Source of the DNA: a virus
Virus record (IMG/VR): IMGVR_UViG_3300003322_000810
Location: 1-46,286 of that record
Length of the DNA stretch: 46,286 nt
Strand: one strand, 5' to 3'
Made by a program: the position numbers and the translations under genes. This document shows, one piece after another, positions 1 to 46,186 of the stretch. Under the pieces are notes generated by a model, which was given only the letters and a program-made list of their open reading frames with translations, was not told where the DNA came from and ran no database searches. The first letter of the stretch is position 1. The number at the start of each line of letters is the position of its first letter.

Positions 1-154
1 TGAGGCGATGCGCAGAGCTAAGGAAAAGGCTGGATTATAGGCGGATGGCACCCCCGGTCAAGGTACTGCCTGTGTTGTATAAAATATCCAACGTGGTCAT
101 TGTCGCGCTCGCGCTATTAGAGATGCGGCAGAATGCGAAATGGTATACAGGTGG

Positions 155-7533: not shown

Positions 7534-7849
7534 TAAAGAACTCAAGCAATGGCGGGAAGACTATATCCGGCTGGAACAGGATTACCGCCGGGAGGTTCCG
7601 GAAATGAAGCAAAAACAAATTCTCCATGCCAACGCGATCAATGAGCTACAAACAGCAGAGGCAAACAGAAAACAAAATACAGCAGAGATCGCCGACGCCT
7701 CGATAGAGCGATGGATGAAACAGAAGGGCCGCCGCCTTGAGCGCTGGACCCCGATAATTGTGCAGCTTATCATCGCCGCCGGAGTCCTCGGCGTCGCCTA
7801 TATCGGCTATCTTGGAATCATTGCGCAACTGAAAGGAATTATCCCATGA
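7526..7849 (+). CDS. Coiled-coil protein with one C-terminal membrane helix
   Basis: 107 residues. The ATG at 7526 has AGGGGA 5 bases upstream and is preferred over starts further upstream. Residues 1-70 are charged and predicted coiled coil. One hydrophobic segment lies near residues 78-98 (IIVQLIIAAGVLGVAYIGYLGII). This N-in layout resembles small phage holin-associated or haemolysin XhlA-like proteins, but no decisive motif is seen. It overlaps both neighbouring genes by 4-8 bases. Confidence 0.6.
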   Translation: MDDKELKQWREDYIRLEQDYRREVPEMKQKQILHANAINELQTAEANRKQNTAEIADASIERWMKQKGRRLERWTPIIVQLIIAAGVLGVAYIGYLGIIAQLKGIIP

Positions 7850-8148
7850 CCCCAGAACAATGGCTCGCATCAGGAATTTCATGTCTCGTTTGTAGCGGCC
7901 TCACCGTCCTACTCATGCAGGTTGTAAAAAAATACGACCCCGATCAAAAACTGCGGTCACTCCGATTGCTTATTGTTTTTGCCGCAGCCATGATAAGTTC
8001 GTTTGTCGTTTTTCTCGCCGGCGCGTTCCCGATTGAGCATATACCACTTCAGGTCACCGCGACATTCACGATCGCGACACTTTTTCACTCTTGGATCTTG
8101 CATGCCATCGAGAAAAAATTGAAAGAAAAAACAGGGGCAATAAAGTGA
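7846..8148 (+). CDS. Putative holin (three membrane helices)
   Basis: 100 residues with hydrophobic segments near 8-27, 41-62 and 69-88 and a strongly basic C-terminus (KKLKEKTGAIK), as in class I holins. It sits directly upstream of the putative endolysin gene, which overlaps it by 4 bases (GTGA). Holins permeabilise the inner membrane at a set time so that endolysin reaches the wall. The assignment rests on topology and neighbours, not on a family match. Confidence 0.6.
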   Translation: MTPEQWLASGISCLVCSGLTVLLMQVVKKYDPDQKLRSLRLLIVFAAAMISSFVVFLAGAFPIEHIPLQVTATFTIATLFHSWILHAIEKKLKEKTGAIK

Positions 8149-8543
8149 GACAAGGAATTCAACTCGAACTTAAGGACCAGGAAATAAAAGAATACGGCTG
8201 TTATGCCTTATGCATCATCCAATGGGCCGAACTCGAAACCAGTCAGACATTCGACGACAAGGATGTCAAACGTATTATCGGTGATGCAAAACAGAAATCC
8301 ATCATAGGCCCCGAGTGCTTCGTCAAAAACCCGCCAGCACTCTTCAACCTCGCCGCCCAGAAAGATCTGAAAACGCAATGTCTAAAAACAACGTCTCCGG
8401 TGCCAACTTGCATCTGCTGCAATAAAAAGCCAATGTACACGCATTTCACCCTGTGGCATGACGGAAAAACATGGGACCCGCTCCCACCCGGTCGCCCGAG
8501 TGCGAAGGCATACAAGCCTGATTCATGGCGAGTATTATCGTGA
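8145..8543 (+). CDS. DUF261-like protein, putative cysteine peptidase endolysin
   Basis: 132 residues from the GTG at 8145, which has AGGGG 7 bases upstream and overlaps the holin stop. The EYGCYALC opening and the C-terminal HFTLWHDGKTWDPL followed by a Ser-Arg-Val end recall DUF261, a family I know from spirochaete phages and plasmids. An N-terminal Cys and a later His-Asp region fit a papain-like fold. Cys39-type peptidase or endolysin activity is inferred from this and from the holin-like genes on both sides. A CICC pair in the middle could bind a metal. If it is not the endolysin, the phage has no recognised one. Confidence 0.5.
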   Translation: MRQGIQLELKDQEIKEYGCYALCIIQWAELETSQTFDDKDVKRIIGDAKQKSIIGPECFVKNPPALFNLAAQKDLKTQCLKTTSPVPTCICCNKKPMYTHFTLWHDGKTWDPLPPGRPSAKAYKPDSWRVLS

Positions 8544-8602
8544 ACTCGGACTCAATACAGACGCTCGCGAGCGTTGCAAATCAGAAACAGGAGGGCCAGA
8601 AA

Positions 8603-8806
8603 ATGCCCGATAAAAAATGGAAGGTCTCTGACCTCTGGACCGACGCGCAGGGAAAACTCGATGAAAAACGTGTACTCGGCTGGCTACTCGCCATCGGCGC
8701 CATGGCGTATTTCATCATCCGCGGCGACGTCAATGGCTTTGTCGCTGGCATCAGCGCGAGCGCCGGATTCTTCGGCATATCGGTCGCGGCAGACCAGGGG
8801 AAATAA
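8603..8806 (+). CDS. Small holin-like membrane protein
   Basis: 67 residues. The ATG at 8603 has AGGAGGG (8589-8595) 7 bases upstream, a strong site; the open frame extends upstream without a better start. Two hydrophobic segments (about 25-40 and 44-60) connected by a short GDVNG turn, as in class II holins. May act with or antagonise the product of 7846-8148. Confidence 0.6.
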   Translation: MPDKKWKVSDLWTDAQGKLDEKRVLGWLLAIGAMAYFIIRGDVNGFVAGISASAGFFGISVAADQGK

Positions 8807-9382
8807 GTGTGGACAAAATCAACAAAGCCTTCGAGTGGCTCAAAACTCGGCCCACGTGGCTTAAAATTCTGCTTGTTGTTCCTGGCTTTCTGCTTGCCCT
8901 CATTGTCCTGGGCGCAGCAATCGCCCGAGCCGCCCGCGAGCAATCCATTTCTGGATGGACTACCACAACTACCAGAGCAGCCGAGCTCCACGATCAATCC
9001 GCCGATGCCACAAAAGAGCGACAAGCCGCTGAGCTTGCAGTTAGCCGACAGGCTGGAGAGTTGGGACAAATTCTGGACGATGGACGTTCGACCGTTGATA
9101 CAGGATTGGCAGACCTACGGGACCGAGGTGCAGACGTGGTATCAAAAGGTGACAGCCTCGTGGAATCTGATGCTGACCTCATTGCGCGAGCGCGACGAGA
9201 AAGCGGCGAAGGAACTGGCGGCGAAGGACGCTGAGATCGAGTACTTGCGCAGCGAGAATATACGTTTGAATATTGCTAATGCAGGTTTGAAATCAGATCT
9301 CAATCGCGCGCGAGGCGGAATGGTAATTACCGGGATAACCGGACTCGGCGTCGGATTCATACTCAAAATGCTCATAAAATGA
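8807..9382 (+). CDS. Putative outer/unimolecular spanin in the overlapping frame
   Basis: 191 residues. A basic N-region and hydrophobic segment (residues 20-36) ending SWA-QQ look like a secretion signal, with a Cys in LAFC that is a poor lipobox. A proline-rich stretch (38-70), a coiled coil (95-165) and a C-terminal membrane helix (about 172-188) ending in Lys follow. Signal plus proline-rich part plus C-terminal helix is the layout of unimolecular spanins such as T1 gp11. After 9234 this is the only open frame and its coding character (coiled coil plus helix) is clear. The GTG at 8807 is only 5 bases from the ribosome site, so coupling or an internal start is possible. Confidence 0.5.
   Translation: MWTKSTKPSSGSKLGPRGLKFCLLFLAFCLPSLSWAQQSPEPPASNPFLDGLPQLPEQPSSTINPPMPQKSDKPLSLQLADRLESWDKFWTMDVRPLIQDWQTYGTEVQTWYQKVTASWNLMLTSLRERDEKAAKELAAKDAEIEYLRSENIRLNIANAGLKSDLNRARGGMVITGITGLGVGFILKMLIK
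8809..9234 (+). CDS. Putative inner-membrane spanin (i-spanin-like), overlapping frame
   Basis: 141 residues. The N-terminus is basic, then a hydrophobic helix spans residues 19-40. The rest is Ala/Glu/Asp/Arg-rich and helical, the layout of Rz-like i-spanins anchored in the inner membrane. Its GTG start has AGGGGA 7 bases upstream, the better spacing of the two overlapping GTG starts. The whole gene is contained within the gene in another frame at 8807-9382. Function from topology and lysis neighbours only. Confidence 0.55.
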   Translation: MDKINKAFEWLKTRPTWLKILLVVPGFLLALIVLGAAIARAAREQSISGWTTTTTRAAELHDQSADATKERQAAELAVSRQAGELGQILDDGRSTVDTGLADLRDRGADVVSKGDSLVESDADLIARARRESGEGTGGEGR

Positions 9383-9405
9383 AAAAGGCCCCGGAAACCG
9401 GGGCC
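9382..9405 (-). terminator. Rho-independent terminator of the reverse mini-operon
   Basis: An 8-bp perfect G+C stem (9387-9394 with 9398-9405) with a three-base loop. The T-run (9386-9382) is on the minus strand. It lies 7 bases beyond the stop of the leftward 58-residue gene. Confidence 0.75.
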
Positions 9406-9411
9406 GGTAAA

Positions 9412-9588
9412 TCATCGGCCGGGACGGTGTTTCCTCCGAGCCTTGATTTTTACTGAATTGGAAAATCGAGATATCTCAGATTTTCCAAGCTGATAACCAC
9501 CCTTATAATCCGAGTTTGAATCCAAATCCTTATCGGGTATTCGGGTATTAAGGGCATCGTTTCTGCCCCGTTCGAAGTCTTCGCTCAT
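9412..9588 (-). CDS. Small basic hydrophilic protein of the reverse mini-operon
   Basis: 58 residues (MSEDFERGRNDALNTRIP at the start, ending KARRKHRPGR). The acidic N-terminus and strongly basic C-terminus suggest nucleic acid or protein binding. No family recognised. Its ATG overlaps the stop of the upstream 34-residue gene (ATGA) and the terminator follows at once, which makes a real gene likely despite its length. Confidence 0.6.
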   Translation of the reverse strand: MSEDFERGRNDALNTRIPDKDLDSNSDYKGGYQLGKSEISRFSNSVKIKARRKHRPGR

Positions 9589-9689
9589 TTGCCGTAGAAA
9601 ACAACGTAGGTTGATTGACCTACTGCCAATTGACTGGTAACGATCGGAAATCTCTTAACAAGAATTCCGGAATTGATTGCGTTTTTCAT
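9585..9689 (-). CDS. Small protein, first gene of the reverse mini-operon
   Basis: 34 residues (starts MKNAINSGILVKRFP). AGGAGG lies at 9704-9699, 9 bases upstream of the ATG, and a near-consensus promoter lies at 9766-9738. No family recognised. The leader around the ribosome site is repeated upstream of the minus-strand gene at 40633-40875. Confidence 0.6.
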   Translation of the reverse strand: MKNAINSGILVKRFPIVTSQLAVGQSTYVVFYGK

Positions 9690-9690
9690 C

Positions 9691-9713
9691 TATGTGCGCC
9701 TCCTAAGCGCTTT
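9691..9713 (-). promoter_or_regulatory. Repeated ribosome-binding leader, copy 1
   Basis: A 23-base segment matching 40878-40900 at 21 of 23 positions. Read on the minus strand it contains the palindrome AGCGCT immediately before AGGAGGCGCACA. It covers the ribosome site of the gene at 9585-9689. Such conservation outside coding sequence suggests a shared translational or transcriptional control site. Confidence 0.55.
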
Positions 9714-9737
9714 GGTGCATCAGCACCTTATACATAC

Positions 9738-9766
9738 AATATAGCTCTAACCGGTCAAACTGTCAA
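9738..9766 (-). promoter_or_regulatory. Near-consensus sigma-70 promoter of the reverse mini-operon
   Basis: Minus strand: TTGACA (9766-9761), exactly 17 bases, TATATT (9743-9738). The -35 box and spacer lie in a 25-base block (9747-9771) that recurs with one mismatch at 31757-31781 in front of another leftward gene. The spacer contains TTTGACCGGTTAG, a candidate operator. Confidence 0.8.
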
Positions 9767-9803
9767 GTTAAAATGATGAAAAATATAAAAATAATGTCGT
9801 GAT

Positions 9804-9832
9804 TTGACTTTTTTTTATGGCGTCCGCACTAT
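9804..9832 (+). promoter_or_regulatory. Promoter for the protease/capsid operon, predicted leaderless
   Basis: TTGACT (9804-9809), 17-base spacer, CACTAT (9827-9832; the A at position 2 and T at position 6 match consensus). Six bases later comes the ATG at 9839, which has no Shine-Dalgarno. It would restart rightward transcription after the reverse mini-operon. Confidence 0.5.
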
Positions 9833-9838
9833 TGGCGC

Positions 9839-11260
9839 ATGGCGAAGGAACAGGTCTGGGCTATGGAGCCCAATTACCTGCACAATTATCTCGAACGTCT
9901 CGAACTCGCGGCAACTCAACCGATGCCGAAATCATGGTTTGACGACGATGAAGACGACGAGCCTGAGTCAAAACTCTATAGCATCGACGATGCTGGCGTC
10001 GCCACCATCCCAATTAACGGCCCACTCTCCATGAGCGGCCCAAGCTGGTGGGCGCGCATATTCGGCTTCGGCGGCACCGGTTATACCGATATTCTCACCG
10101 CACTCGAAAAAATCAACTCAGACCCCAGTGCTAAGGCCATCATGCTCGCAGTCAACTCCCCCGGCGGCGAGGTTAACGGCTGCGACCAAGTATGGCAGGC
10201 GATCCGCGCCAGTCAAAAACCAGTCATGGCCCTGAACTGCGGACTCATGGCAAGTGCCGCATACTATTTATCGAGCGCCGCGAAATCCATCTATGCCACG
10301 GGCCCCGGCGACGAGACCGGCTCTATTGGTGTTGTGGTCTCCGGGTGGGACGACTCCGCATATATGGAGAAAAACGGCGTTCGCCGCATCAACATTTACA
10401 GTAAAAACGCTCCGAACAAGGCAATGTCATTCTCGACCGAGAAAGGTCGAGAGCTTTTACAAGCCCGCGTCGACGCCTTCGAGCGCATCTTCCACGCGCG
10501 CGTAGCCGAGGGCCGAGGCATTGCCGCCGCCGATGTCGGCGAGCGTTTCGGATCGGGTGGCATATTTGTCGCCGAAGACCCGGACAAAACGCAGCCGAAC
10601 GCCGTAAAAATGGGCCTCATCGATGGTATCGGAAACGCGCATGCCGCGCTACTCCGCATGGTCGAGTCTGGCCCATCCAGTATGCGCGCAACCCTCGTTG
10701 TGCCCATCGGATTTAAGACAGTAGAAAACCCGGAAAAACCGGAAAAATCACCCGAATCCAAAAAGCCCCAGGAGGGTAAAAGAATGGATCTCAAAGAATT
10801 CATGGCCCAGGGGCCGCTTGCCGTCGCGGAAATCGAGGCCATCAAGGCCGAGGCCCGCAAAGCAGGCATCAAGGAATTCCAGGAAATGAGCGCGAGCGTA
10901 TCCGCCATCCTGGAAAAAGACGCATACAAGAGCGTGACCGCACTCCACACTCACGGCCTCGCGGTCATGAAGGGTGAAGTCAGCTTCGAAAGTTTTAAAA
11001 TGCTCGTCGCTACCTACGACATGATGAAGGCCGACGCATCGCTCAAGCTTGAGCAGTCGTCGAAACTCCCCGAAACCCCCGCCGCGCTGCAAGCAAAGGG
11101 CGCCGAACTGGTAGCCGACGCCGAAAAATACAAGATCAACATCCAGCAAATCCAGGCCGCGGCCAAAGCTCAGGGCATCGATCCTGACAAGGCGGTGCTC
11201 GCGGCCATCGATAACGCGAAGCTTATCGCCGCCGACCGTGGCGAACTGGTGGGGGCGTAA
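9839..11260 (+). CDS. Prohead protease (S49 family) with C-terminal scaffold
   Basis: 473 residues. Residues 50-285 are an S49/SppA-like serine protease as in lambda gpC, with NSPGGEV (106-112), the nucleophile Ser in LMASAAYY (Ser139), GSIGV (161-165) and a candidate Lys near 190. From about residue 315 the sequence is helical and charged like lambda Nu3 scaffold. The enzyme is built into the prohead, then processes head proteins and itself. ATG 9839 lacks a ribosome site but matches a predicted transcription start. A second in-frame start at 10784 would make scaffold alone. Confidence 0.92.
   Translation: MAKEQVWAMEPNYLHNYLERLELAATQPMPKSWFDDDEDDEPESKLYSIDDAGVATIPINGPLSMSGPSWWARIFGFGGTGYTDILTALEKINSDPSAKAIMLAVNSPGGEVNGCDQVWQAIRASQKPVMALNCGLMASAAYYLSSAAKSIYATGPGDETGSIGVVVSGWDDSAYMEKNGVRRINIYSKNAPNKAMSFSTEKGRELLQARVDAFERIFHARVAEGRGIAAADVGERFGSGGIFVAEDPDKTQPNAVKMGLIDGIGNAHAALLRMVESGPSSMRATLVVPIGFKTVENPEKPEKSPESKKPQEGKRMDLKEFMAQGPLAVAEIEAIKAEARKAGIKEFQEMSASVSAILEKDAYKSVTALHTHGLAVMKGEVSFESFKMLVATYDMMKADASLKLEQSSKLPETPAALQAKGAELVADAEKYKINIQQIQAAAKAQGIDPDKAVLAAIDNAKLIAADRGELVGA
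10784..11260 (+). CDS. Internal in-frame scaffold protein (Nu3-like)
   Basis: Inside the protease gene, in frame, an ATG at 10784 has AGGAGGG (10770-10776) 7 bases upstream, the best ribosome site in the region. It would give a 158-residue, helical, acidic protein (MDLKEFMAQGPLAVAEIEAI at the start). Lambda Nu3 is made in the same way from within gene C. The surplus of free scaffold over protease fits capsid assembly needs. Confidence 0.75.
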   Translation: MDLKEFMAQGPLAVAEIEAIKAEARKAGIKEFQEMSASVSAILEKDAYKSVTALHTHGLAVMKGEVSFESFKMLVATYDMMKADASLKLEQSSKLPETPAALQAKGAELVADAEKYKINIQQIQAAAKAQGIDPDKAVLAAIDNAKLIAADRGELVGA

Positions 11261-23494: not shown

Positions 23495-23594
23495 AAAACC
23501 GAGGCGCGAGGATTGATTTGGAGACTGTTTTATGAGCAAAGCCATATACTCGGATGCCCTAAATATAGTGTCGCCTCAAAATCGTTTTAAACGC

Positions 23595-23681
23595 CTTTGT
23601 AAATCTATACAAAGCAACAACTTACATAAACAAGTCAAATTGACATGTTATTCGCATAACGACTACGCTATAGGTAGCGTA
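23595..23681. promoter_or_regulatory. AT-rich control region with three inverted repeats
   Basis: Three perfect inverted repeats follow in close order: CTTTGTA/TACAAAG (23595-23614), GTTAT/ATAAC (23647-23660) and TACGCTA/TAGCGTA (23664-23681, loop of 4). They lie between the gp45-like and gp46-like genes, immediately before a predicted leaderless promoter. They could be operators or RNA hairpins. The 216 bases from 23495 to 23710 hold no convincing gene. Confidence 0.5.
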
Positions 23682-23695
23682 CCTACTACGAAATG

Positions 23696-23704
23696 TGGTA
23701 TATT
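23696..23704 (+). promoter_or_regulatory. Extended -10 promoter, predicted leaderless
   Basis: TGG plus TATATT (23699-23704); six bases later the ATG at 23711. No clear -35 box and no ribosome site. The same TGTGGTATATT string stands at the same distance from the ATG at 32042. Confidence 0.5.
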
Positions 23705-23710
23705 ATGGGC

Positions 23711-24142
23711 ATGATCGATAGATACTCCGGCGACCCAAAAGTTATAGTCACCGCGTCAGGCGCCACCTTCCAGTGGATCGGTGGCCAGCCCGTCATGGAC
23801 CAAGGCGTCGAGAATCACGGCATCATGGCGCTTTTGATCGATGATGACTGGTGCGGCAACCTTTTACTTGATGACGATCATCAGATTGGTAGCGACTTCG
23901 AGGAGGCTGTCATCGGTCAGGCTATCACCCTCCAGGGTCTCGACCTTATCCGTAACCGCGCCGAGATTGCTTTGACCTCGCCATTATTTCCCGACCGTGC
24001 TGTGAGTGTGGTCAACCCCGTGAGCGATCAGATTAAACTTGTGGCAACACTTGGTCCCGGAACCGCGCCGCTTGAGTTGAACCGATACGGACAGAATTGG
24101 CAGAACCAGGCGGAGAATCCTGCGTATAAGAGGGTGATATGA
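23711..24142 (+). CDS. Baseplate protein (Mu gp46-like)
   Basis: 143 residues from ATG 23711; an ATG at 23705 is in frame but also lacks a ribosome site. LLIDDDWCGNLLLDDD and the LTLQ-like AITLQGLDLIRNRAEIAL helix match gp46 family proteins, which form the wedge of the baseplate. The start coincides with a predicted transcription start, suggesting that the distal baseplate and fibre genes have their own leaderless message. Confidence 0.75.
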   Translation: MIDRYSGDPKVIVTASGATFQWIGGQPVMDQGVENHGIMALLIDDDWCGNLLLDDDHQIGSDFEEAVIGQAITLQGLDLIRNRAEIALTSPLFPDRAVSVVNPVSDQIKLVATLGPGTAPLELNRYGQNWQNQAENPAYKRVI

Positions 24143-28939: not shown

Positions 28940-29760
28940 AAACCATATTCCACGCCAACATCGATGGCTACGAGATCATAACCGGCTTTGCCGACGCCAC
29001 ACCCGACCCGATGGCGACGATGGCAAAAATATCACCGATGCTTCCCGGACTCCCTGAGCAACAGGCGGTCAACGAGATCAATGACAAGATCGCTGCGCGC
29101 CGGCAAAAGGTCATCGACGAGTTCAAGGGTATTTTCGGCCACGAGCCTATCGAGTTACGATCGGGTGCCGAGGGCCAATGGTTCGCTGAGGCTCGCCATA
29201 AATGCGAGCAAGATGTGAGTGCACTGGCCACGCTCTTGGTAGATCCGACCCGAGCGCGCGACCTTGCGGTGAAACGCCTCTACGACGCTAACACGGTGTA
29301 CTTCCAGCCCGGCGAGCTTGAGTACCTCGACACCGAGAACCGAGCCGATACGCTGATTCCGATTTTCGTCGGTCGATCCGACAGCGAGCAGGTTCAACTC
29401 GATGGCACGTTGATACCAGATTTCCGGGGGCGGCGCGTCTGGCAGAAAGGAATCTGGCGTGATCGAGTCATATCGAAACTTGGCGACAAGCCCGGAGACG
29501 ACGAGACTCTCGACGATGACCTTAGCGATACCGATCGATCAACCATCGCCGATAAGAAAGAAACCGAACGTGTCTACTTGCTGACGACTGAACAAAAAAC
29601 CGCCGAGGTCAAAATGATTCTCGACGGCTTGGCTGCTCAGGCTGCGGCGCGGAAGGATGAGGCGATTATCAAGGGCGAGTCGACGGATCATGCGCTCCGG
29701 GATGCCCAGGCGTGGTACAAAGCGGAGGAAGAAAAGGTTAGAGCGAAGTACGAACTATAA
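28936..29760 (+). CDS. Tail-associated hypothetical protein, last gene of the late operon
   Basis: 274 residues, acidic, helical at both ends. A central beta part (VYFQPGELEYLDTENRADTL) lies between them, plus an acidic linker (DDETLDDDLSDTDRST). No family recognised. It ends the rightward late genes and overlaps the stop of the leftward RHH gene by 6 bases, tail to tail. Confidence 0.55.
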   Translation: MKTIFHANIDGYEIITGFADATPDPMATMAKISPMLPGLPEQQAVNEINDKIAARRQKVIDEFKGIFGHEPIELRSGAEGQWFAEARHKCEQDVSALATLLVDPTRARDLAVKRLYDANTVYFQPGELEYLDTENRADTLIPIFVGRSDSEQVQLDGTLIPDFRGRRVWQKGIWRDRVISKLGDKPGDDETLDDDLSDTDRSTIADKKETERVYLLTTEQKTAEVKMILDGLAAQAAARKDEAIIKGESTDHALRDAQAWYKAEEEKVRAKYEL

Positions 29761-29955
29761 GCAAAGAACGATTTCCTTCTCTATCTTCCCGTCGTTTATT
29801 ATCGAAATAGATTTCCCATCTAAGACAGATTTGTGCAGAACGGCATATGTAAGTAATGCCTTTCTCATCAATTCAGATTGGGAAATCTGTTCCTCTCCTG
29901 CTATTTGCTTGAAAACAGAATCGAGTTTGCTTGGAATTTCAACTGAGTATCTCAC
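29755..29955 (-). CDS. Ribbon-helix-helix regulator
   Basis: 66 residues. MRYSVEIPSKLDSVFKQIAG followed by ISQSELMRKALLTYAV gives the short beta strand and two helices of RHH/CopG-type DNA-binding proteins. GTG start with GGAGGA 6 bases upstream. Probably represses a phage promoter as a dimer. It lies at the left end of the leftward genes and may face transcription running in from the late operon. Confidence 0.7.
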   Translation of the reverse strand: MRYSVEIPSKLDSVFKQIAGEEQISQSELMRKALLTYAVLHKSVLDGKSISIINDGKIEKEIVLCL

Positions 29956-30899: not shown

Positions 30900-31124
30900 T
30901 CACTCGGCAATGGTCTTTTCGTTTGATTTGATACGCGCCGCTTTGATCGCCCGGCGCATGGCGTGCTCGATAATGCGTAACTCGTCCTCGTTGATGTCGT
31001 AGATGTACCGGCGTCCGACTGAGCCTGTTGGAGCCGGTATGGTTCGGTGACCCGAGCGACCGCAGTAGCGCTGTACACGGTCGACGGTGAGGCCGAGACG
31101 GTCGGCTGCTTGTTGGGTGGTCAA
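30900..31124 (-). CDS. Helix-turn-helix DNA-binding protein (excisionase/MerR-like)
   Basis: 74 residues. TQQAADRLGLTVDRVQRYCG is a winged-helix N-terminal motif as in MerR/excisionase-type proteins, followed by a strand (GSVGRRYIYDINEDEL). The TTG start overlaps the upstream stop (TTGA). No integrase is present, so a regulatory rather than excision role is more likely. Confidence 0.65.
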   Translation of the reverse strand: MTTQQAADRLGLTVDRVQRYCGRSGHRTIPAPTGSVGRRYIYDINEDELRIIEHAMRRAIKAARIKSNEKTIAE

Positions 31125-31273
31125 GATTTAACCCGCCTGCCGATCCAGATGTGAAATGCAAGCCAAATAAAATGATACCAAACATGACCATCTTCGGTAA
31201 AACCATCGGGCTTTTCTCGTTTCGGATGAATGGTGAAAAGACCGCGAGCCCTCTTAAATATTTCGATTTTCAT
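31121..31273 (-). CDS. Small hypothetical protein (50 residues)
   Basis: Begins MKIEIFKRARGLFTIHPKRE, with an aromatic C-terminal half (HVWYHFIWLAFHIWIGRR). Start and stop overlap the neighbours by 4 bases each, and GGAGG lies upstream inside the preceding gene. Function unknown. Confidence 0.5.
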   Translation of the reverse strand: MKIEIFKRARGLFTIHPKREKPDGFTEDGHVWYHFIWLAFHIWIGRRVKS

Positions 31274-31425
31274 CCCCTCGTCTCCTCCATCTGCTCAACG
31301 ATAATGTACTTTTTTCCTTGGTACTCGACTGGTATTTTGCTTGCGGCACGGTGCTTCATGAAACTCGGTACCGACATGGCAGCGATGACGTAGCCGATTA
31401 CGATGCCTATGATGAGTTCGATCAT
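31270..31425 (-). CDS. Small single-helix membrane protein (51 residues)
   Basis: Residues 2-20 (IELIIGIVIGYVIAAMSV) form one membrane helix; the rest is a basic then acidic cytoplasmic tail ending MEETRG. Overlaps the preceding gene by 4 bases. Function unknown. Confidence 0.5.
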   Translation of the reverse strand: MIELIIGIVIGYVIAAMSVPSFMKHRAASKIPVEYQGKKYIIVEQMEETRG

Positions 31426-31730
31426 GATTTGCTCCGTAAATATTCCTGTAAAGCGGGTAGTACCTGTTCCGAGAACCGCTTTGCGCCGTCTCTGATCTTG
31501 TTGCTCATTGCAACATAAACAAACCCTTCATACATCTTTGATGCAAAATAGGTCGTGTCCAGTTTGAGCAAAAACTTTTTGAAGTCATCGCCGAACGATC
31601 GCCACGAGTATGAAAAATTTCCATAATCCGTGACCGCCGCGAACATGCCGTCGCTCGTTATAACGACTTGACCAAGCCAACCACCGTTTTGTGTTTTGAG
31701 CGTTATGCTCTCTGCTACTACGTTATCCAT
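31422..31730 (-). CDS. Hypothetical protein, first gene of a small leftward operon
   Basis: 102 residues from ATG 31730, with GGAGGAGG 5 bases upstream (better than a start at 31745). Beta then helical pattern (GGWLGQVVITSDGMFAAVTD, then FKKFLLKLD). No family recognised. It follows the promoter with the repeated 25-base operator. Confidence 0.6.
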   Translation of the reverse strand: MDNVVAESITLKTQNGGWLGQVVITSDGMFAAVTDYGNFSYSWRSFGDDFKKFLLKLDTTYFASKMYEGFVYVAMSNKIRDGAKRFSEQVLPALQEYLRSKS

Positions 31731-31747: not shown

Positions 31748-31776
31748 ACCATATAACTAACCGGTCAAAGTGTCAA
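31748..31776 (-). promoter_or_regulatory. Leftward promoter with repeated operator block
   Basis: Minus strand: TTGACA (31776-31771), 17 bases, TATGGT (31753-31748). The block 31757-31781 matches 9747-9771 at 24 of 25 positions, including the spacer TTTGACCGGTTAG. The identity of a non-coding block in two places makes a shared regulator likely. Confidence 0.7.
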
Positions 31777-32009
31777 GTTAATTTTGCGAAATCGGGGCTT
31801 GTGGTTATGCGAATTTCCCAATTTTCTGATATGCGGAATACGATTTCATACTCTACGCGATTGAAGCCGTGGCCCTCGACTCGTTTTATTTCCTCGTGAG
31901 CACGGACGATATTGTGGCCGTCAACGTCTCGCATGACAACCTCGCCATCTGAGTCGTAAAAATCTGTTTTGTTTTCGTGGCACCATCCAAACCATTTCAT
32001 GATATACAT
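31773..32009 (-). CDS. Small hypothetical protein
   Basis: 78 residues from ATG 32009 (GGAGG 6 bases upstream). Acidic, with strands (KTDFYDSDGEVVMRDVDGHN). Its stop lies inside the 31748-31781 promoter block. It is divergent from the VRR-NUC gene, 32 bases apart. Function unknown. Confidence 0.5.
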   Translation of the reverse strand: MYIMKWFGWCHENKTDFYDSDGEVVMRDVDGHNIVRAHEEIKRVEGHGFNRVEYEIVFRISENWEIRITTSPDFAKLT

Positions 32010-36131: not shown

Positions 36132-37180
36132 ACCGACTCCAGATTTATTTTAAGCTGCCGAACCTCGTCGTCAATTCGTTTGTACGCCATATCGATATAT
36201 TGCGGATTCAACTCGATGCCGACAAATTTTCGATTGAGTCGCGAGGCTACAAGTGCCGTCGTTCCTGCACCCATAAACGGGTCAAGAACGATGCCGTTCT
36301 CCGGGGATCCGGCGAGTATGCAGGGTTCAATGAGTTTTTCCGGGAAGGTGGCAAAATGGGCTTCGGGGAATGCTTGCGTAGCGACGGTCCATACGGTGCG
36401 TTTGTTTGCGCCGGTTGCTTGTTGTTCTTGCTTTGACATGCCGTCCCATCGGTCGTTGAATCCCGCATGCCTGCGGGAATGTCCGCGCTGTTTATCTGAT
36501 CTGGGAGCAACGGCTTTCATATTTCCATTGCCTTTCGATGGAGTATAAGATCCGTTTTGATTTTTTATATCTTGATTAAGTCGTGCCACTGAGCTTTCTT
36601 TTATTGGTTCGCGAATAGCGTAGGAATCATAATAGTATTGGGGCGATTTCGAAAGCAAAAACAGATACTCATGCGCCTTCGTTGGTCGGTCTATTACCGA
36701 CTCGGGCATAGGATTTGGCTTACTCCAAATGATATCCGATCGGAGATACCAGCCGTCCGCACGCAGGGCGAAGGCGAGCATCCATGGAATGCCTACCATG
36801 TCCTTTGATTTTATGCCATTTATGGCACCCCTTTTACCATGACGGGTAGCCTTATTTTTGTCTGTGCCAGGTTCGGCAGTTCGAATTCCATCCTTCGCAA
36901 ATGATCCGCCACCGCCATTTCCGCCACCCGCATATGAATCCCCAATATTGACCCACAACGTCCCATCATCCCGAAGCGTTCGGCGAACTTCTCTGAATAT
37001 CTCGACCATGTTCGCGATATATTCTTCCGGGGTGTCCTCAAGACCGAGTTGTCCCGGAACGCCATAGTCACGAAGATTCCAATAGGGAGGGGATGTCACG
37101 CAGGTATTGAAAAATTGGTCGGGAAATTGACGAAGCAGCATGAGGCTATCGTCTTCATAAATCTTATTCAATTCCATCAT
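36128..37180 (-). CDS. DNA methyltransferase (N4-cytosine or N6-adenine type)
   Basis: 350 residues. Catalytic motif IV SPPY (30-33) comes before the AdoMet-binding motif I LDPFMGAGTT (about 300-310), the beta-class order. SPPY is usual for N4-cytosine enzymes but also occurs in N6-adenine ones. The variable region (about 180-260) should set the sequence specificity. No restriction partner is nearby, so protection of phage DNA against host restriction is likely. Its start overlaps the primase stop. Confidence 0.9.
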   Translation of the reverse strand: MMELNKIYEDDSLMLLRQFPDQFFNTCVTSPPYWNLRDYGVPGQLGLEDTPEEYIANMVEIFREVRRTLRDDGTLWVNIGDSYAGGGNGGGGSFAKDGIRTAEPGTDKNKATRHGKRGAINGIKSKDMVGIPWMLAFALRADGWYLRSDIIWSKPNPMPESVIDRPTKAHEYLFLLSKSPQYYYDSYAIREPIKESSVARLNQDIKNQNGSYTPSKGNGNMKAVAPRSDKQRGHSRRHAGFNDRWDGMSKQEQQATGANKRTVWTVATQAFPEAHFATFPEKLIEPCILAGSPENGIVLDPFMGAGTTALVASRLNRKFVGIELNPQYIDMAYKRIDDEVRQLKINLESV

Positions 37181-40173
37181 ATCCCCACCTCATCATCCCA
37201 AATGATCTCGCGAATCCAGACACTCGCTCCGAGGCGCGCGAAATTCTCGTACTTCCAGTACTTCGACGAGCGTTTGAGGAGTTTTGAGTACGTCCTGCCA
37301 CTCATATCCCACACCTTTGATATGTAATCCGAGTTCGCTTTGACCACGAGGCAACCTGATTTTTTATCGACCATGACACCGCGATTGACCGCGGTCGTGC
37401 GCCAGTTGTCCAACTCGGTGTACTCGAGATTCCTCGTCTCGGTTCGACCAGACAGGCCAAGCTCACGGTTCTCCCCGGTTTGCTTCTCGACGACGCCGTA
37501 CTTGATGCCCCTGAGTATCTCGCGCAGGGTCAACTCAGTTTTCGGGTCTCCTGATATTTTCGTCACCTGGTCCAAGAGTTTGTCGAGCATCTCCTCGGTC
37601 TCGTCGCGCTTATCCTCAAGCGGTTTGACCTTGTAGACTTGACCTATCCAGTCGGCGAACTCGTCCTCACCTGGGATCCGGTCTTTGAACACCCGCCAGA
37701 AGGCCGCGAACAAGAGTGCGTCGGCGTATCCTCGGCGCGAGTCCTGGATCATAGCCACGATTGCCCGCGTCATGACGTTTGCTGCCGCGAGGATCTCAGG
37801 CATCTTCGACCATGTAAACGCCCTGATACCTGCGCACACGTCGTCAGTCACGGCCGCCGCAAGGTTGTCCGATATGGTCTCCCACTTGCTTGGATCACCC
37901 GGCACGAGGTTGACCGACATGATTCGGTTGTCTTGCTCGACATTTCCCGTAGCCGGCGTCACCGCCGAGAACAGGAACATGTTGCGCATAAGGTACGATA
38001 GAGCGCCCTCACCGTTCGGCGTGCCCTTGGCGACCTGCGGCGCATCGTCTGAGGTCGATTGCTGCATGAGCGCGAATAGCCCTTGACGCATTTCCTGACC
38101 TTTTTTACCCTCGATGTTGGCCTCGTCGATGATGACCGGTAGGCTATCGAGTCCGGTCTTTTGCCTGACTCCGGCCTCGGATGTGCCTCCCGACAGGTAA
38201 TAGGGTGTAGCCACCAGCGGCATGATGACGCGGAGTAGTAGCGTCGATTTACCCGATTTGCTCTCGCCGGTCAGTACCATCGCGTTGCGCCACGGGAGAC
38301 ATCCGCCGAATGGTGCAAGCAGGCTCCATGCAAGCGCCCTCGTAGTGTCGGCTTTGGTCTCAAAGGTCATAGCCGACACGGCCTCAAGGAATTTCTTCCG
38401 CTCCTCGAATGTCGCATGCCGCTTGTGTAGGCCCACATCGTAGACGGTTTTTTTGAGGTACAACCGGCGGTCGTCCGGCTCGCCGATCGTCTGGTGACCG
38501 TCATGGTAGCAGATACGGCCGTCACGCTCCCGCCATGCACCGCGACCCCGACGGTTCTCAGGATCGAACTCTTGCGCCTGGCTGATGCGGATGACAAAAT
38601 CGGTGGACTCTTGCCAGTCGACGCCACCCTTGTGATTCGGGAACTCGGTAATCCACCATGTGAGTGGTGCCAAGTCAAGCATTTTTGTACTCGTCAGGGT
38701 GTCGAGTCGGTATTTTTTGAGTCGGGCTGAACAGTCGAGGAAGTAGGCGAATCCGTCGTCGGCGACTCCGAGGGGGCGGAAGGGGTAGTCAGTGTTATTG
38801 TTATCCCGTGGGTGCCCGTCTCCTCCTCCCACTTGCCTGCTATGAGAAAGCACCCCTCCGGTGCCCGCAGAAATATTTCCTTTACCGCTTGAATCAGTAT
38901 TTGTTCTACCTGATCCTGGGTCATTGTTTCGAACGGTCTGCTGGGTGCTTCCATTTTGTTCAATTCTACCTTTTCCCGTTTCATTTTTCGCGTGACTCCT
39001 TTTCTTCCTGTCTCGTTCTTCCCAACCCGCGATAAGCGCATCGAGTTCGTCCGTGCTGATCTCGGGACCGTTCAAGATCCACTCGCGCATCTCGTCGGGT
39101 GTTTTGACCTTGAGTGCGTCCACGATGTCCGAGCCGTCGCCGAAGGTTCCTACGGCAGGGCGGCAGACCTTGATCCGTATTTCCGAACGATTTTCTTGAT
39201 TATTCGCATTTTCGGACTGATCGTGTTCCGCTGCTTTCCGCGCTTCCGCTTCCAAACGACGGGCGAGATTCCTTGCGGCCTTAAAACCCGGTTCGTCGTT
39301 ATCTGGATAGTAATAGGCACCATCCCGAGCGATTCGTGCTGATAACGAATTTCCGATATCGAACTTTCCCACACTTTCGACGCCTCGATTCCACGAAAGC
39401 GGCACAATTCCTGTAATCGCCTTAGCTGCCGCTCGACACTTCGCGCCCTCGTGGAAGCAGATGGGCCAGTCTGGGTTTTTTGCGAGCTCGTCTCGTCCGA
39501 AGAGGATGACGGGGGCGTTTTTGGTCTGGATGTATTGTCCGTTGTAGTAGAAGCTGATGACGTTTTTAACGACTGCGTGTTGGCTTCGCTCCACGCCTTC
39601 TCCCACTGTTCCATCGTCATTTCTTTCCTGCTCGAATCTGACATCTACAACCTCCACAAGTCCTTGTTCATTCCGCGCGGCCCATTTGCCCGCTATTCTC
39701 GTACCCCAGCCAACTGACGGGTTCTCAGGTTTTTTGCCGTGCTTATCGAAATACTTCTTGTCGTCGAACTCAGCTTTCCACGCATTCGCCTTCATGAGCG
39801 CGTCGTCCGAGAAAATACGGCGCGCGTCCTCGTTTGTGACCGGCACGACTACTGGGACCTCACGCTCTTTCTTCGTCTGGCGCTTGACCGGCTCGCCCAC
39901 CGATGCGCCGACGGTATCGGCTACACGCTGGAGTACGGTTGGAAAATCAGTCGATCCGCGCAGCCATTGGTCGACCTCGAACACGTCGTAGTTCATCGCG
40001 CATACAAAGCAGTGTATATACTCGTCGTTGGCGATATGCGCATTCTCATACGGCGGACCGTCATTATGCGCCGGGTTTTGGCAGGGCACGTAGTCGTCCG
40101 ATGTTATCTCAATGCCTGATCGCGTCAAGTAATCGCGCAGTCGCGGGCGCAGGTCGTCAGCTTTGAGCCTCAA
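37177..40173 (-). CDS. Primase-helicase replication protein
   Basis: 998 residues from TTG 40173 (AAAGGG about 6 bases upstream). The open frame continues to an ATG at 40314, but that part is read through the tRNA-like element and lacks protein character. A zinc-binding CQNPAH/CFVC region (about residues 31-57) is followed by a TOPRIM-like core with HEGAKC (about 241) and YYPDND (about 285). A C-terminal helicase follows, with Walker A GESKSGKST (about 635) and Walker B VIIDEAN. It likely primes and unwinds at the phage origin. Linker residues 360-450 are charged and low complexity. Confidence 0.85.
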   Translation of the reverse strand: MRLKADDLRPRLRDYLTRSGIEITSDDYVPCQNPAHNDGPPYENAHIANDEYIHCFVCAMNYDVFEVDQWLRGSTDFPTVLQRVADTVGASVGEPVKRQTKKEREVPVVVPVTNEDARRIFSDDALMKANAWKAEFDDKKYFDKHGKKPENPSVGWGTRIAGKWAARNEQGLVEVVDVRFEQERNDDGTVGEGVERSQHAVVKNVISFYYNGQYIQTKNAPVILFGRDELAKNPDWPICFHEGAKCRAAAKAITGIVPLSWNRGVESVGKFDIGNSLSARIARDGAYYYPDNDEPGFKAARNLARRLEAEARKAAEHDQSENANNQENRSEIRIKVCRPAVGTFGDGSDIVDALKVKTPDEMREWILNGPEISTDELDALIAGWEERDRKKRSHAKNETGKGRIEQNGSTQQTVRNNDPGSGRTNTDSSGKGNISAGTGGVLSHSRQVGGGDGHPRDNNNTDYPFRPLGVADDGFAYFLDCSARLKKYRLDTLTSTKMLDLAPLTWWITEFPNHKGGVDWQESTDFVIRISQAQEFDPENRRGRGAWRERDGRICYHDGHQTIGEPDDRRLYLKKTVYDVGLHKRHATFEERKKFLEAVSAMTFETKADTTRALAWSLLAPFGGCLPWRNAMVLTGESKSGKSTLLLRVIMPLVATPYYLSGGTSEAGVRQKTGLDSLPVIIDEANIEGKKGQEMRQGLFALMQQSTSDDAPQVAKGTPNGEGALSYLMRNMFLFSAVTPATGNVEQDNRIMSVNLVPGDPSKWETISDNLAAAVTDDVCAGIRAFTWSKMPEILAAANVMTRAIVAMIQDSRRGYADALLFAAFWRVFKDRIPGEDEFADWIGQVYKVKPLEDKRDETEEMLDKLLDQVTKISGDPKTELTLREILRGIKYGVVEKQTGENRELGLSGRTETRNLEYTELDNWRTTAVNRGVMVDKKSGCLVVKANSDYISKVWDMSGRTYSKLLKRSSKYWKYENFARLGASVWIREIIWDDEVGI

Positions 40174-40202
40174 TGTGTTCCCTTTCCAGTTCCAGCGAAA
40201 AC

Positions 40203-40342
40203 GAGAGACGGCCGGATTTGAACCAGCGACCTTCCGACAAATAGCCTCAACGCGCCTCGACACTGGACATGCACTGACCCCACGTCGACCGGCCCCAGCG
40301 TCTACTTTTTTCATCGGTGCTCTACCACTGAGCTACGTCTCT
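40203..40342 (-). other. tRNA-like element with an enlarged anticodon arm
   Basis: Minus strand, 140 bases. Acceptor AGAGACG pairs perfectly with CGTCTCT. U8 is present. The D arm is GCTC-AGTGGTA-GAGC and the T arm is GCTGG-TTCAAAT-CCGGC, both canonical. CCGAT and GTCGG can form an anticodon stem, but 74 bases replace the 7-base loop, so about 67 extra bases are inserted and no U33 is obvious. The insert itself can fold (TCGAC with GTCGA). It is either an intron-like tRNA, a decayed tRNA or an RNA mimic in the leader of the primase gene. Confidence 0.65.
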
Positions 40343-40632: not shown

Positions 40633-40875
40633 TTATTCGAAGTGATCTGCGCGAACCTGTTTCACGATGTCGATTACCTCAGTAACCTGACTTTCGTTGT
40701 ATAGCTTCGCCGGTTTGCCGAAGGGCTTGCCGTTTGCGGTCAATGGCTGCGGGCCGTCTTTGGTCTCGACCTTGAAGAATCGCAGGATGACGCGGGTCTC
40801 CTCGACGGACACACCGAGTATCTCGGCAGCGTCGGCGGATCGGATGTAGCCTGCGGGTAACGTAGTTTCAGACAT
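40633..40875 (-). CDS. Helix-turn-helix protein
   Basis: 80 residues. YIRSADAAEILGVSVEETRVIL is a helix-turn-helix of the MerR/excisionase kind; the middle (PLTANGKPFGKPAKLYNESQV) resembles the wing. Strong AGGAGG in a leader shared with the reverse mini-operon at 9585. Likely a regulator or replication accessory protein near RecT. Confidence 0.65.
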   Translation of the reverse strand: MSETTLPAGYIRSADAAEILGVSVEETRVILRFFKVETKDGPQPLTANGKPFGKPAKLYNESQVTEVIDIVKQVRADHFE

Positions 40876-45146: not shown

Positions 45147-45388
45147 TAAAATACCCCTCCGTGATGGATGCGCACCACCGCATCCCGGCCAGCGCCGTCA
45201 ATCGTAATCCAGGTTTCTGAATCCAGCAAGACGGTTTCGCGTGGAATTACTCGCGATTCCGCGGACTCGTACTTCTGGCGCTCTGACTCGGCAAACGCGG
45301 CGACAAACATGAATATCAGTGCGAAAGTGATCGCAATTGATAGCCAGAATCGGCGCTCGAATGTTTCGTTGCGGTAGTGATAGGTCAC
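45146..45388 (-). CDS. Membrane protein with one helix
   Basis: 80 residues; hydrophobic helix at about 15-33 (WLSIAITFALIFMFVAAF), followed by a Glu/Arg-rich outer or inner domain with strands (SETWITIDGAGRDAVVRIH). Coupled to its neighbours. Function unknown. Confidence 0.55.
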   Translation of the reverse strand: MTYHYRNETFERRFWLSIAITFALIFMFVAAFAESERQKYESAESRVIPRETVLLDSETWITIDGAGRDAVVRIHHGGVF

Positions 45389-45837
45389 TCGAGTAGCCCG
45401 CGTATTTTCCCCGAACGATAAGCATCCTCAATTTGAGGCACAAATCGCTCGGCAAATGTCTCCCCACTTGGCAAAACAAACTGAGCAAGGAATTCCTCTT
45501 CAAACGTCACAATGCCAGTCGCGACGGCTTCGAGTTTTGCTTTTATGACAAGACACAAGGCGCGCCACAGTCGACGGCATTCTTGCTCATAGGCCGATTC
45601 AACCGATTGATTAGACCGAATTTTTCCTGTTGCCGTTCGTTTTATGGATTCAACCTTCGGCATCAGTAAAACGAATTTTACTTGCTTTCTGTTTATCTGA
45701 AATACAACAATGGCCTTTTCTGAGTTCACCATATAGCCGAACTCAGTCGCACCATGCTTAGCAAGGTTTTTCTCGATTTCGGACTTTGATCGATCGATTG
45801 AAACGACTGTATCCTCGGCGTATTTTCTGGTGCTCAT
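45385..45837 (-). CDS. Conserved phage early protein of unknown function
   Basis: 150 residues starting MSTRKYAEDTVVSIDRSKSE. Proteins with this opening (RYAEDTSVSVEKSRAEIE-like) recur in many phages and plasmids without known role. The middle has strands (IVVFQINRKQVKFVLLMPKV), the rest helices ending with YRSGKIRGLLE. Overlaps the RHH gene. Confidence 0.65.
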   Translation of the reverse strand: MSTRKYAEDTVVSIDRSKSEIEKNLAKHGATEFGYMVNSEKAIVVFQINRKQVKFVLLMPKVESIKRTATGKIRSNQSVESAYEQECRRLWRALCLVIKAKLEAVATGIVTFEEEFLAQFVLPSGETFAERFVPQIEDAYRSGKIRGLLE

Positions 45838-46010
45838 TCTATTTCCGCCTCATCAACCGGATCGGACGGCGCTACACCGTTCTGTCGATGATATGCCTCC
45901 ATGGCGCGTTTGATGATCTCGCCTTGGGGTACGCGCTTATCCAACGCTTCCTCGATGATGTCCTCGACCACACTCTGTTCTATGGCAAAAGCCCTGGTTA
46001 CTTTCAACAT
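45834..46010 (-). CDS. Early ribbon-helix-helix-like regulator, first leftward gene
   Basis: 58 residues from ATG 46010. LKVTRAFAIEQSVVEDIIEE and VPQGEIIKRAMEAYHRQNG read as strand-helix-helix of the RHH class. The frame stays open to an ATG at 46112, but that extension lacks RHH character and spans a promoter. The ATG sits at the predicted transcription start, so the first message of the early region may be leaderless. Confidence 0.65.
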   Translation of the reverse strand: MLKVTRAFAIEQSVVEDIIEEALDKRVPQGEIIKRAMEAYHRQNGVAPSDPVDEAEIE

Positions 46011-46016
46011 GCCTTG

Positions 46017-46046
46017 AGTGTAAGGCTTGTAATACATGCATGTCAA
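46017..46046 (-). promoter_or_regulatory. Early leftward promoter, predicted leaderless
   Basis: Minus strand: TTGACA (46046-46041), 18 bases, TACACT (46022-46017), 6 bases, ATG (46010). A further TATAAT (46135-46130) without a -35 box lies upstream. Confidence 0.6.
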
Positions 46047-46186
46047 GCACAAATCGGAAAAAATCGAAAATCGACCGGAAACGCCTATAATTATTATCTT
46101 TCCATTTTCCATTATTTTTCACTTTATTCATTATACAGCATGAGTTTAACCCTCGCGTTATATCGTTATTTTTTTCCGCGGGGGAT

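Follow-up and report, generated by a model that had tools for sequence, protein, structure and literature searches.

A reverse-strand two-gene mini-operon with predicted early-type control elements at the portal–protease junction of a contractile-tailed phage

The minus strand of a phage genome holds, between the portal and protease genes of the rightward late cluster, a complete two-gene unit with its own predicted promoter and terminator (positions 9382-9772). We regard this mini-operon, with a probability of about 0.55, as a protein-coding, self-contained moron under early-type control that specifies small, host-directed proteins. Phage cargo of this kind is familiar, and the unit exemplifies it well; its two proteins are unlike anything known. 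What is newly seen is that its promoter core, the dyad in this core and its ribosome-binding site (RBS) element recur within the same genome.

The phage genome

The window, that is, the whole stretch of DNA that was analysed, comprises 46,286 bases of the 47,285-base IMG/VR record. The far end of the record repeats its start; an essentially complete genome, either circular or circularly permuted, is therefore probable, with one masked stretch. The plus strand encodes TerS, TerL (GpA type), the portal, an S49 protease, the major head protein, a tail sheath and a baseplate, and the phage is therefore contractile-tailed. Between 46.1 and 29.7 kb, the minus strand encodes a MazG-type protein, a YqaJ nuclease, RecT, Nmad5, a primase-like protein, a DNA methylase, a DEAD/ResIII helicase and a homing endonuclease, and from these functions we infer that it is the early, replication strand. 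No tyrosine integrase (PF00589) was found in the whole record and no CI-like repressor was recognised, which leaves the carrier state proposed in a preliminary description of this DNA unsupported. The best TerL relatives were only approximately 30–41% identical, so no close relative was available for comparison.

Structure and coding signal of the mini-operon

Direct reading of the minus strand bore out, to the base, all the elements first described there: the TTGACA-17-TATATT promoter, AGGAGG, ORFs of 34 and 58 codons, their ATGA overlap and the G+C-rich terminator (Table 1). The AGGAGG at 9704-9699(-) lies 9 nt ahead of the ORF1 ATG at 9689. The terminator has a folding energy of -18.3 kcal/mol, and its T-run ends at 9382, the last stop-codon base of the late gene 8807-9382(+). 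A bidirectional terminator was considered and rejected, because the plus strand has no T-run. The GC content of the unit was 44.6% versus 53% for the phage, a modest difference; 7% of equal windows were lower.

Table 1. Features of the mini-operon and of related sites in the window
Feature	Position	Strand	Remarks
Predicted sigma70-type promoter, TTGACA-17-TATATT	9766-9738	-	11/12 consensus matches, best of the region
-35 TTGACA	9766-9761	-	Direct reading
-10 TATATT	9743-9738	-	17-nt spacer from the -35
25-bp promoter core TTAACTTGACAGTTTGACCGGTTAG	9747-9771	-	24/25 identical to 31781-31757(-)
Imperfect dyad AACNNGNCANNNTGNCNNGTT within the core	9749-9769	-	Putative operator across -35 and spacer
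A+T-rich stretch 5' of the -35	9772-9838		Direct reading; possibly resembles an UP element (minus strand), doubles as protease-gene leader
5'-terminal mRNA hairpin GGUGC-UGAU-GCACC	9714-9727	-	Leader z-score -2.7
RBS hairpin GCGCUUAGGAGGCGC	9696-9710	-	Encloses AGGAGG 9704-9699
ORF1, MKNAINSGILVKRFPIVTSQLAVGQSTYVVFYGK	9585-9689	-	34 aa; basic, zero acidic residues; orphan
ORF2, MSEDFERGRNDALNTRIPDKDLDSNSDYKGGYQLGKSEISRFSNSVKIKARRKHRPGR	9412-9588	-	58 aa; orphan; ATGA 9588-9585 shared with the end of ORF1
Intrinsic terminator	9382-9405	-	Stem 9405-9387, 8 pairs, all G-C, 3-nt loop, then TTTTT
S49 head-maturation protease	9839-11260	+	Flanks the unit; no evident Shine-Dalgarno
Sister promoter P31776, common core	31748-31781	-	Drives early-strand genes (predicted)
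P31776-driven genes	31422-31730 (phrog_13202), 31270-31425, 31121-31273, 30900-31124 (HTH_17)	-	
Third dyad AACAAGTCAAATTGACATGTT	23629-23649		Near-perfect 21-bp palindrome, 9/10 pairs; inside a small ORF
GGAGG with ATGA-coupled ORF pair	7603-8148; 31730-31270; mini-operon	+; -; -	

Although short, ORF1 and ORF2 are most likely both real genes, because the arrangement exceeds chance and their codon scores are coding-like. The pattern of GGAGG, an ORF of at least 30 aa and an ATGA-coupled ORF of at least 50 aa occurred at three loci in the window, against 0.02 expected from first-order Markov sequence; TTGACA-16..18-TAnnnT occurred four times, against 0.6 expected. When codon log-odds were scored against the phage's own early genes and compared with shuffles, ORF1 reached +0.061 bits/codon (above 98.8% of shuffles, with 1.2% reaching the same value) and ORF2 +0.116 bits/codon (above 99.4%, with 0.6% reaching it). 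Both scores lie within the range of the early genes, whereas the other five frames of the unit had negative scores and contained stops. The codon use of ORF2 matches the early genes and not the late genes (-0.13).

Control elements shared with the early strand

When the unit was compared with the whole genome, two further matching sites came up, both at early-strand genes. The promoter core, TTAACTTGACA(G/C)TTTGACCGGTTAG, recurs at 31781-31757(-) with 24 of 25 positions identical, the next best place in the genome reaching 17/25. The gene behind this sister promoter, 31422-31730(-), belongs to phrog_13202, with Myxococcus phage Mx4 as its closest phage match; it likewise has a GGAGG and an ATGA-coupled follower, after which come a 50-aa ORF and the HTH_17 protein. 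The RBS element, AAAGCGCTTAGGAGGCGCACA, recurs with 20/21 identity at 40900-40880(-), where it forms the RBS of 40633-40875(-), the early-strand gene downstream of recT. Both RBS copies fold AGGAGG into a GCGC-stemmed hairpin. Beyond the phage itself, the longer promoter core was not found in the genome contigs and the RBS element was not found in the viral contigs. One promoter-pattern match in a viral contig (L004) was rejected as chance, because the contig is unrelated and AT-rich, the match falls within a coding ORF, and about one such match was expected.

The mini-operon thus carries control parts of the early strand, and its promoter, rather than being generic, is a near copy of an early-module promoter of the same phage. 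Since the promoter core and the RBS element recur at early-strand genes, early (that is, non-late) expression is supported, albeit indirectly, and these shared elements are the best available clue to the timing of expression; of the two timings first proposed, it is this one that gains. The sharing of the promoter could also reflect duplication without regulation.

The promoter core holds a dyad, TAACNNGNCANNNTGNCNNGTTA, which taken alone does not stand out, since 12–14% of shuffled cores are as good. A third dyad, at 23.6 kb, matches 13 of the 14 specified bases, with 0.0125 such places expected per genome, and overlaps a TTGACA. A common operator of the three sites is suggestive only, because the third dyad lies within a 60-codon ORF, 23532-23714(+), among baseplate genes, and because the motif was defined after the sites had been seen. 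Candidate binders of the dyad are the HTH_17 protein 30900-31124 and the ribbon-helix-helix proteins 29755-29955 (PF01402) and 45834-46112. In the most far-reaching version, one phage repressor would bind AACNNGNCANNNTGNCNNGTT at the mini-operon promoter (P9766), at P31776 and at 23.6 kb, the head-cluster cargo would be wired into the early switch, and the orphan micro-proteins would form a new anti-host pair; we consider this combination rather unlikely.

The portal–protease junction as a site of reverse-strand cargo

The unit had been described as lying inside the head cluster. It does lie between the portal and protease genes, but the gene directly to its left, 8807-9382(+), was not recognised as a head gene and belongs to a stretch of small membrane-protein and DUF261 genes that leads from portal to protease. 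In this stretch, 8807-9382 and 8809-9234 (+) are long ORFs in different frames with GTG starts 2 nt apart and hydrophobic N-terminal segments, and are possibly overlapping lysis (spanin-like) genes.

We compared the junction across 28 distant relatives in which a protease could be recognised and whose portals were at most 36% identical. The unit was absent from the junction in all of these. In a typical relative, the preceding gene shares 4 bases with the protease gene or stops at most a few dozen bases before it. In the present genome, the protease ATG (9839) lies about 70 nt beyond the mini-operon promoter and has no evident Shine-Dalgarno sequence, whereas in most of the relatives the protease start overlaps or nearly touches the preceding gene; the gap may therefore be the trace of an insertion that broke a coupled junction.

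The junction was closed or contained forward genes only in 26 of the 28 relatives, so the mini-operon is accessory. One example is L080, in which the gap holds forward genes, including one for a DUF261 protein (like 8091-8543 here) and one for a small membrane protein, with no reverse unit. The other two relatives carry reverse-strand toxin–antitoxin (TA) pairs in the portal–protease gap: a PrlF/MazE-type antitoxin and a PIN toxin with an ATGA overlap in L058 (5759-6405, -), and a BrnT toxin with an HTH antitoxin in L063 (4422-4926, -). The junction is therefore an occasional home of reverse two-gene cargo, and the present unit marks it as a slot for such cargo. By analogy, the slot would argue for an accessory, host-directed role, and not for homology.

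These neighbours lend some appeal to a TA-like or addiction pair, in which ORF1 and ORF2 would neutralise each other and stabilise the phage or exclude competitors: the slot, the strand and the format of two small genes are the same, and in L058 the ATGA coupling is also shared. However, we consider such a pair improbable. There is no sequence relation to the L058 and L063 modules, both products are shorter (ORF1 has merely 34 aa), no recognisable toxin or antitoxin domain was found in Pfam, NCBIfam, PADLOC or PHROGs, the TA and PADLOC models gave no match, no DNA-binding or nuclease domain could be recognised in either product, and a stable carrier state is not indicated.

The two products and their possible roles

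The products had been described as unknown, and the small-protein-family search agrees: ORF1 and ORF2 gave nothing beyond chance against Pfam, PHROGs, NCBIfam and PADLOC, and no match emerged in any library or collection. For ORF2, neither PDB sequences nor a translated search of phages, viral contigs and genome contigs returned a match. Profile searches recognised no HTH domain in either ORF. Single-sequence structure models had pTM values of 0.32 (ORF2) and 0.40 (ORF1) and were not used for function; that of ORF2 predicts two helices (3-14 and 36-53) with a basic C-terminus and had no match among PDB folds. By eye, ORF2 resembles ribosome modulation factor (PF04957) in a similar RG..(D/A)A...S.(W/Y).GG(W/Y) pattern and in its two helices, but an RMF/CrpP-like identity was rejected, since the family profile, positive in an E. 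coli control, found nothing in this genome at E<=10 and no PDB sequence or fold matched.

Morons are short coding units that lie between adjacent conserved genes and have a promoter and a terminator of their own (definition as quoted in PMC4378225). The earlier proposal of such a unit, expressed apart from the late genes, fits in so far as the reverse unit is complete, its GC content is lower and the junction is mostly closed elsewhere. Like phage morons, the mini-operon has a predicted promoter and terminator of its own and is absent from (distant) relatives; it differs from them in consisting of two coupled genes on the reverse strand, in a promoter that nearly copies the phage's own early-strand promoter and does not look foreign, and in showing no indication of lysogenic expression. 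The acr-aca operons, such as acrIC7-acrIC6-aca10 (PMC9410881) and the anti-CRISPR region of Pseudomonas Mu-like phages (PMC4378225), are similar in being small-gene operons with a strong promoter, a dyad across the -35 and spacer, and an accessory low-GC position. In contrast to these, the mini-operon has no Aca-type HTH gene and no Acr or PADLOC match, its dyad is imperfect and alone does not exceed shuffles, and its candidate regulator is encoded elsewhere. A literature search found no closer case of lytic-phage cargo that lies on the reverse strand and has an early promoter.

With the host-directed moron as our preferred reading, the following course can be proposed. Shortly after entry of the DNA, host sigma70 RNA polymerase would transcribe the unit and the P31776 module alike, and a phage DNA-binding protein recognising the common dyad would later shut both promoters. 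Candidates for this protein are the HTH_17 protein encoded behind P31776 and the ribbon-helix-helix protein 29755-29955. Late rightward transcription across the gap would further oppose the unit. More tentatively, ORF2 may be translated by coupling to ORF1, and the two small products may act on the host, in anti-defence or host takeover. Small early phage proteins commonly act on the host. Wrong-strand cargo in a late cluster would thus probably keep its early expression through near copies of the phage's early promoter and RBS, and if the micro-proteins do act on the host, they would add two short anti-host proteins that are new and simple to test.

About as improbable as the TA pair is a unit for superinfection exclusion or immunity that a resident phage genome would express. 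A constitutive-looking promoter with its own terminator would suit it, as in lysogenic-conversion morons (PMC4378225), and there is a precedent in Fc02, where overlapping small ORFs give rise to a 7.9 kDa protein that excludes phages (PMC9936078); yet the record has no integrase, neither product is membrane-protein-like by eye, and the promoter is common to an early lytic-strand module and not to a repressor gene.

Less probable still is a role at the RNA level, in which a structured or antisense transcript would act on the late mRNA, in which the complement of the whole unit is present (9382-9839). Consistent with this would be the strong hairpins at both ends of the unit and at the RBS, the protease start without an evident Shine-Dalgarno sequence and the fact that the late transcript covers the unit completely, but both ORFs have coding-like codon use, a good Shine-Dalgarno sequence and ATGA coupling, the unit stops exactly short of both flanking genes, and Rfam gave no match to it. 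Similarly remote is an accessory function in lysis or head assembly, such as that of an antiholin-like regulator, encoded on the other strand by chance: the unit adjoins the small membrane-protein genes 7846-9382, and L080 has its DUF261 and small membrane-protein genes at the same place, but the opposite strand, the early-type control elements and the lack of membrane-protein character in either product oppose it.

Other features of the early strand

Several further features of the early strand were observed. Downstream of P31776, 30405-30881 (-) encodes a predicted lipoprotein with a transglutaminase-like core (PF01841). A tRNA-like gene at 40203-40342 (-), with an Rfam tRNA score of 44.5 bits and an insertion of approximately 68 nt, was missed by ARAGORN; it overlaps the annotated start of the primase-like ORF 37177-40314 and may be an intron-like or decayed tRNA. 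Around and beyond the right end of the window (L005 456-555), an AGT/TC microsatellite and a masked N stretch lie at the divergent early/late junction. Finally, the 150-aa early protein 45385-45837 (-) belongs to phrog_17260 and is approximately 47–50% identical to proteins of mycobacteriophages and of Leptospira phage LE1, an unexpectedly wide spread of relatives.
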